From contig JACOEM010000005.1 in NCBI GenBank assembly GCA_024998565.1, positions 124,001 to 188,000 of the forward strand: 64,000 nt of DNA, given 5' to 3'. Of this stretch, positions 45,592-45,738 are shown in pieces. The DNA is from Nitrospira sp. (GTDB taxonomy: Bacteria > Nitrospirota > Nitrospiria > Nitrospirales > Nitrospiraceae). The notes beneath the pieces are model-generated. The model was not told the DNA's origin, searched no databases, and was given only the letters and a program-made list of their open reading frames with translations. Made by a program: the position numbers and the translations under genes. Every line of letters begins with the position of its first letter. Position 1 is the stretch's first letter.

Positions 45592-45620
45592 TTGACACGG
45601 TAGGGGCAACTCGTTAAGAT
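45592..45620 (+). promoter_or_regulatory. Sigma-70-type promoter of the pyr operon
   Basis: TTGACA at 45592-45597 and TAAGAT at 45615-45620 are separated by exactly 17 bp. Transcription should begin near 45627, so the PyrR-binding hairpin starts essentially at the 5' end of the mRNA. It lies in the 306-bp gap between tkt and pyrR. Confidence 0.75.
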
Positions 45621-45627
45621 CAGCCCG

Positions 45628-45659
45628 CCTTTAACGCTCATCCTGTGAGGTGGGTAAGG
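45628..45659 (+). promoter_or_regulatory. PyrR-binding RNA hairpin (anti-antiterminator)
   Basis: The RNA contains UCCUGUGAGG, which fits the core of the PyrR-binding consensus UCCNGNGAGG. The upper stem is CAUC (45639-45642) against GGUG (45649-45652) around the six-base loop CUGUGA. The lower stem is CCUU (45628-45631) against AAGG (45656-45659) across an asymmetric internal loop. When PyrR with UMP binds this hairpin, the downstream terminator can form. Confidence 0.75.
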
Positions 45660-45703
45660 AGATCATGACCACACGACACGGCAGCCAGCCGTCCGACAGC
45701 CCG

Positions 45704-45738
45704 CACCTTCTCATCCAAATCGGTGGGAAGGTTTTTTT
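45704..45738 (+). terminator. Attenuator terminator before pyrR
   Basis: A stem of ACCTTC (45705-45710) with GAAGGT (45727-45732), extended by CA/TG after one mismatch, is followed by seven T residues ending immediately before the ATG. The pyrR Shine-Dalgarno GGAAGG lies within the 3' strand of this stem. The 3' part of the PyrR-binding hairpin, GGUGGGUAAGG, can pair at 8 of 11 positions with CCUUCUCAUCC, the terminator 5' side, which gives the antiterminator. Confidence 0.7.

Follow-up and report, generated by a model that had tools for sequence, protein, structure and literature searches.

A PyrR-type RNA switch at the head of the Nitrospira pyrimidine operon and its probable coupling to translation of a leader reading frame

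Attenuation by PyrR is the textbook example of protein-controlled antitermination and was worked out in Bacillus; pyrBI of E. coli is governed by UTP-sensitive pausing at a U-tract, with no PyrR involved. For Thermus strain ZO5, PyrR attenuation was reportedly proposed in 1997 without an antiterminator, the translating ribosome preventing the terminator from forming, in a gene cluster said to be ordered pyrR-pyrB-bbc-pyrC. In Mycobacterium smegmatis, PyrR binding is said to hide the Shine-Dalgarno sequence of pyrR itself, in a leader that has no terminator. In Bacillus, UMP-bound PyrR stabilizes an anti-antiterminator and the terminator forms, and the pyr operon of B. subtilis contains three PyrR sites (PMC7430163). 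Nitrospirota were not among the 24 bacterial lineages covered by a 2013 survey of RF00515, the Rfam model of the PyrR-binding RNA (PMC3766115), and the literature that we searched yielded no description of PyrR regulation in Nitrospira. The RNA, the protein and the autoregulation of pyr operons are already known; what appears to be new here is comparative support from a whole phylum, which the earlier Thermus proposal is not known to have had.

The window analysed is a stretch of 64,000 nucleotides from the genome of a Nitrospira closely related to Ca. Nitrospira defluvii (FP929003.1), the PyrR proteins of the two being 99% identical. On the forward strand the window carries pyrR (45739..46323; PF00156), the only copy in the genome, encoding 194 amino acids if translated from the ATG at 45739 or 186 from the ATG at 45763. 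The downstream genes are pyrB for aspartate carbamoyltransferase (46338..47258; PF02729, PF00185), pyrC for dihydroorotase (47313..48605; PF01979, PF12890), a gene for a DUF4149 protein (48618..49121; PF13664) and carA for the small chain of carbamoyl-phosphate synthase (49131..50315; PF00988, PF00117), so that a protein without known function sits inside a pyrimidine operon, between pyrC and carA. The PyrR protein is homologous to structurally solved PyrR proteins in its phosphoribosyltransferase fold, with E-values of 1e-63 or better against PDB entries 1a3c and 1non and of 1e-48 to 1e-67 across PDB PyrR entries overall. It contains the motif TRIAHE and with it T18, R19 and H22 (B. subtilis numbering), which we take to be the RNA-binding residues of PyrR.

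The initial annotation had placed a promoter, a PyrR-binding hairpin, an intrinsic terminator and pyrR in immediate succession, and all four were found where it had put them. The promoter is of the sigma-70 type and has the 17-bp spacer claimed for it (TTGACA-N17-TAAGAT, 45592..45620, forward strand), matches 10 of 12 consensus bases and is the sole one found in its 500 bases, with 0.1 expected from shuffles. Among representatives of the order, 33/36 have a promoter scoring at least 9/12, as do 1% of shuffles, and in 31/36 the -10 box lies exactly 7 nt 5' of the hairpin, so transcription would begin essentially at the hairpin; in the window the promoter predicts a start at about 45626-45628, the foot of the hairpin.

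The putative PyrR-binding hairpin (45628..45659, forward strand) consists of a lower stem CCUU/AAGG, an internal loop, a 7-bp upper stem and the hexaloop CUGUGA, and it carries the UCCUGUGAGG core. A search with the Rfam model, one of the checks suggested at the outset, gave a match at 45624-45739 directly upstream of pyrR that covers model positions 1-115, i.e. the model end to end, at 41.0 bits (E 2.2e-4 in a permissive scan of 401 bases); it is the single match in the whole 4.13-Mb genome (E 5.3e-4). Since this score lies below the curated cut-off of 54 bits, Rfam applied to the window with default settings returns no hit at all. By that cut-off the leader falls outside the family, and by its full-length structure, a hairpin with a UCCNGNGAGG core and a terminator upstream of pyr genes, it falls within it. 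The upper stem shows compensatory changes over 86 leaders (A-U/G-C, C-G/A-U/G-C, U-A/C-G), and together with the model match this upholds the earlier reading of the stems and core. The terminator (45705..45738, forward strand) lies within the match and comprises a stem-loop of 11 pairs (45705-45732) and the U-run T7 (45732-45738), the seven T residues originally read; no other was found in its 500 bases, where 0.2 were expected. Folding of the whole 169-nt leader, likewise suggested, gave a structure better than its own shuffles (z -3.19). We therefore regard the PyrR-type RNA switch heading the Nitrospira pyrimidine operon as genuine, as judged by sequence and covariation.

The switch is widespread among relatives. 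An RF00515 match lies upstream of pyrR in 52/61 genomes of the order, and matches at E <=0.05 occur in 309/395 genomes of Nitrospirota, 55/395 exceeding the curated cut-off, including a genus-mate at 54.1 bits. Twelve genomes of the phylum have two matches each, and a second PyrR-controlled transcription unit is therefore predicted in some of them. The protein varies with the RNA. In a residue comparison that used columns up to R140, all PyrR proteins from Nitrospirota that have the RNA carry His at position 22 (141/141), relatives that lack the RNA have D or T there, and Thr is found in 23/29 PyrR proteins of the Aminicenantes type without the RNA. Homologues L129-L160 (mostly Candidatus Aminicenantes) are 50-58% identical and for the most part have Thr in place of His22; the one genome searched (that of L129) gave no RF00515 match, and loss or absence of RNA binding would be consistent with these sequences. 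Similarly, three genomes from one genus of the same order as Nitrospira (L276, L277 and L278) lack an RF00515 match, and their PyrR proteins have DRIADA, DLIADS and DRIAAA, respectively, in place of TRIAHE, so that the enzyme has apparently been kept and the regulation lost.

Between hairpin and pyrR lies an element that the initial annotation missed and that is strongly conserved. The AAGG of the lower stem's 3' strand forms part of a Shine-Dalgarno sequence, AAGGAG (45656..45661, forward strand; anti-Shine-Dalgarno pairing -9.2 kcal/mol), which is followed by a leader ORF of 33 codons (45665..45766, forward strand) that extends across both the stem and the T-run of the terminator. Its peptide belongs to no Pfam family. 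It ends at a TGA inside ATGA (45763..45766, forward strand), a candidate site of reinitiation or coupling at which the stop codon overlaps a conserved ATG, that at 45763, in frame with pyrR. When leaders are read side by side, AAGGAG at the hairpin edge proves to be conserved within the order. Several Nitrospiraceae leaders share a 5-bp GC hairpin (ACGGC/GCCGU, CCGGC/GCCGG etc.) that lies downstream of the ORF's start codon and ahead of the terminator, at 45678-45692 in the window and likewise in five others; considered as a pause signal for RNA polymerase, it did not exceed dinucleotide shuffles (mean z -0.3). By implication, annotations of these genomes may well omit short leader ORFs ahead of pyrR.

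Both candidate starts of pyrR are conserved in the genus. The ATG at 45739 has a Shine-Dalgarno sequence, GGGAAGG, in the 3' arm of the terminator (-7.1 kcal/mol), and the ATG at 45763 has none of its own (0.1 kcal/mol); the latter, within ATGA, recurs across genera, and in N. moscoviensis it stands alone in the open frame. The suggestion that the ribosome-binding site of pyrR is located in the terminator stem is thus possible for the genus, provided that translation starts at 45739, but it is not general. As a separate observation, the T-run is directly followed by ATG at 45739 and in many Nitrospiraceae leaders, even where the pyrR start lies much further downstream, and read in the leader frame this junction encodes Leu-Cys (TTA TGC).

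The conservation of the leader ORF was assessed in 86 non-redundant leaders, which share <75% identity, i.e. differ by >25% in linker and terminator, a filter used because related genomes are not independent; they had been picked by the RF00515 model, which carries no information on ORFs. A start codon follows the Shine-Dalgarno sequence by 2-12 nt in 81/86, compared with 37% of shuffled linkers, and it is ATG in 54/86 compared with 17%. The mean anti-Shine-Dalgarno pairing is -7.6 kcal/mol at the hairpin edge; the remainder of the linker averages -1.0. Among the 81 leaders with a start, the leader frame is open to the 5' arm of the terminator in 74 (25 in the +1 frame, 54 in the +2 frame) and through the T-run in 55 (18 and 41). 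Its stop overlaps a pyrR start (ATGA/TGATG) in 23/81 (0 and 8), and lies within -20..+12 nt of one in 51/81 (9 and 18 in the other frames); 46/81 both extend beyond the T-run and show coupling to a pyrR start. The Bacillota leaders of the PyrR type, analysed with nearly the same script (n=27), have a start in 14/27 and are open to the terminator in 10/27 and through it in 4/27, and the difference from Nitrospirota is significant for both (Fisher p 2e-6 and 7e-6, respectively).

Comparison at closer range gives the same picture. The ATGA arrangement is present in 25/26 genus-mates, the sole exception (L007) coming from an assembly of 1030 contigs, and the ORF measures 33, 32, 31 or 30 codons within the genus. 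Relative to L001, leaders of the L010 group carry -1/+1 indels that swap about 14 residues and then restore the frame; such changes preserve the reading frame but not the peptide. Leaders of more distant genera vary in length and yet often stop on a pyrR start, with 31 codons in N. moscoviensis, 72 in L058, 75 in L183, 52 in L221 and 47 in L223. These patterns show, at the level of sequence, an ORF selected for its frame and not for its peptide. The arrangement extends to another phylum, that of genome G412 (L128/L230, L263-L275), where PyrR attenuators are predicted with the same leader ORF and RF00515 occurs in 14/118 genomes; its leaders follow the Nitrospira pattern, being open to the terminator in 11/13 and through it in 10/13. 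The L128 record is a MAG labelled Proteobacteria, and L128 itself is included among the 86 leaders.

We propose that this locus is a translation-coupled, PyrR-controlled attenuator of the pyrR-pyrB-pyrC-DUF4149-carA operon, a reading in which we place somewhat more trust than doubt, and that PyrR probably acts in it by blocking ribosomes and not through an antiterminator as in Bacillus. The transcript would begin at the base of the PyrR hairpin. Under pyrimidine shortage the RNA would be free of PyrR, a ribosome would load on AAGGAG at the 3' edge of the hairpin and translate the leader ORF, its entry into the terminator region would hinder the terminator, and the stop codon within ATGA would hand it over to the start of pyrR. 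At high levels of UMP, PyrR-UMP would clamp the hairpin and hide the ribosome-binding site; the leader would go untranslated, the terminator would form just 5' of pyrR, and any read-through RNA would be poorly translated, coupled translation of pyrR having stopped. Sequence comparison supplies the parts of this scheme, i.e. the hairpin, the terminator, a PyrR with its RNA-binding histidine and the frame-selected ORF; UMP-dependent binding of the hairpin would be expected by analogy with Bacillus PyrR, and we infer both the occlusion of the ribosome by PyrR and the effect of the ribosome on termination. Hiding the leader's ribosome-binding site would be the simplest output of PyrR binding in the window. 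Several points count against the ribosome model. The chief difficulty is kinetic, in that an early terminator in E. coli largely withstood translation (PMC4824070) and no significant pause hairpin was found in the Nitrospirota leaders. In addition, some genera have a partial antiterminator, the +2 frame, too, is open in a fair number of leaders (54/81), the gap between AAGGAG and the leader AUG in the window is short (3 nt), 12/86 leaders have no ORF that reaches the terminator, and in the naked RNA the AAGG of most other leaders is mostly paired (median unpaired 0.13), that of the window being mostly free (0.75 unpaired).

The initial annotation saw in this leader the Bacillus-type logic outside the Firmicutes, with an antiterminator that pairs in part. 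In such an attenuator PyrR would stabilize the hairpin as an anti-antiterminator, the 3' half of the hairpin would pair with the 5' arm of the terminator when PyrR is absent, and the leader ORF would be incidental. The end-to-end fit of RF00515 to hairpin and terminator speaks for it, as does the 5' arm of the terminator, which by eye can pair in part with the 3' half of the hairpin (GGGUAAGGAG:CUUCUCAUCC, a single mismatch). The energy of this pairing in the window is -10.7 kcal/mol, but 22% of shuffled arms pair equally well (0.225), i.e. it is indistinguishable from chance. The corresponding share of shuffled arms has a median of 0.13 for the order, 0.21 for leaders from outside the order and 0.15 for the Bacillota controls, which the order resembles on this measure. 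Equilibrium folding of leaders from which the terminator 3' arm was left out gave results that are mixed between genera: some relatives favour the antiterminator pairing before that arm is made, and in some genera, e.g. in N. moscoviensis, a partial antiterminator is seen to about the same degree as in the Bacillota controls. Against this stands the control with swapped arms, which was run beside the shuffled ones: across the phylum, a leader's own terminator arm pairs no better with its hairpin than arms taken from other leaders, and there is no sign of co-evolution. The enrichment of start codons, the open frame, the coupling at ATGA and the compensating indels would moreover go unexplained. 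We thus consider a Bacillus-type mechanism unlikely; a PyrR attenuator outside the Firmicutes, with PyrR as its likely regulator, stands, but the evidence on the antiterminator logic attached to it points both ways.

A second possibility is that control is purely translational, as in Mycobacterium, PyrR repressing the leader and, via reinitiation at ATGA, pyrR, while the terminator is constitutive or run by antitermination independently of ribosomes. The stop-start coupling in 51/81 leaders and the lack of a Shine-Dalgarno sequence before the start at 45763 would agree with this, and early terminators are known to withstand translation in E. coli, where one placed 30 bp after the AUG kept ~90% efficiency, with ~10% suppression (PMC4824070). 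The ribosome may therefore need a pause of RNA polymerase to block the Nitrospira terminator, and such pausing is required by pyrBI-type leaders (PMC4824070). Pure coupling, however, leaves no role for a terminator conserved inside an ORF, and about 30 of the 81 leaders are uncoupled, 24 of which nevertheless extend at least as far as the 5' arm of the terminator. It is thus the terminator, and not pyrR, at which the leaders recurrently arrive. This speaks for a mechanism that affects termination in addition to translation, and we judge coupling by itself to be quite unlikely. Finally, the leader peptide could sense UTP through pausing of RNA polymerase as in pyrBI of E. coli, PyrR being just a uracil phosphoribosyltransferase, and both do have a leader ORF that traverses a terminator located upstream of pyr genes. 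The 37 nt between the leader AUG and the terminator (45668-45704) contain a single U, however, and hence no UTP-sensitive pause tract; in addition, the PyrR hairpin covaries and the RNA-binding histidine of PyrR is kept only where the hairpin is present. Sensing of this type was rejected on the lack of a U-tract, and we hold it to be highly improbable.

Set against the described systems, the translation-coupled attenuator that we favour shares features with each of them. The pyr attenuators of B. subtilis likewise combine a PyrR hairpin with the UCCNGNGAGG core and an intrinsic terminator downstream, with pyrR as the first gene and a homologous PyrR (PDB 1a3c, 1non); in contrast to these, the leader in the window has one site, no established antiterminator and a score of 41.0 bits, under the family cut-off, and the 3' edge of its hairpin is the Shine-Dalgarno sequence for an ORF reaching across the terminator. 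With M. smegmatis it would have in common that PyrR hides a Shine-Dalgarno sequence, as predicted for Nitrospira, although in this case the sequence hidden would be that of an independent leader ORF, and the leader does contain a terminator. The pyrBI leader of E. coli likewise has an ORF that leads into a terminator preceding pyr genes, whereas the leader of Nitrospira is without a U-tract. The Thermus type is defined by a ribosome-binding site at the PyrR hairpin and a leader ORF running into the terminator, both of which are found in Nitrospira. The Thermus ZO5 proposal reportedly concerned one strain, whereas the Nitrospirota offer many leaders with controls in the other frames.

Taken to the level of the phylum, PyrR would do without an antiterminator and close off the ribosome-binding site that serves a leader ORF under selection for its frame only, a single binding event setting both terminator read-through, via the trailing ribosome, and translation of pyrR, via reinitiation at ATGA; we regard this broader statement as about equally open to being right or wrong. 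If true, evolution would have derived two outputs from the same PyrR hairpin, one of them the antiterminator of Bacillus, and if the effect in Nitrospirota is mediated by the ribosome, the same protein and hairpin would have been wired to termination in two ways. The choice between these wirings becomes testable by comparison across phyla and a few point mutations, and a Shine-Dalgarno sequence at the hairpin edge followed by an open frame through the terminator may serve as a search criterion for further cases. For the nitrite-oxidizing and comammox Nitrospira, in which regulation is little known, the leader described here points to a probable control of pyrimidine synthesis.
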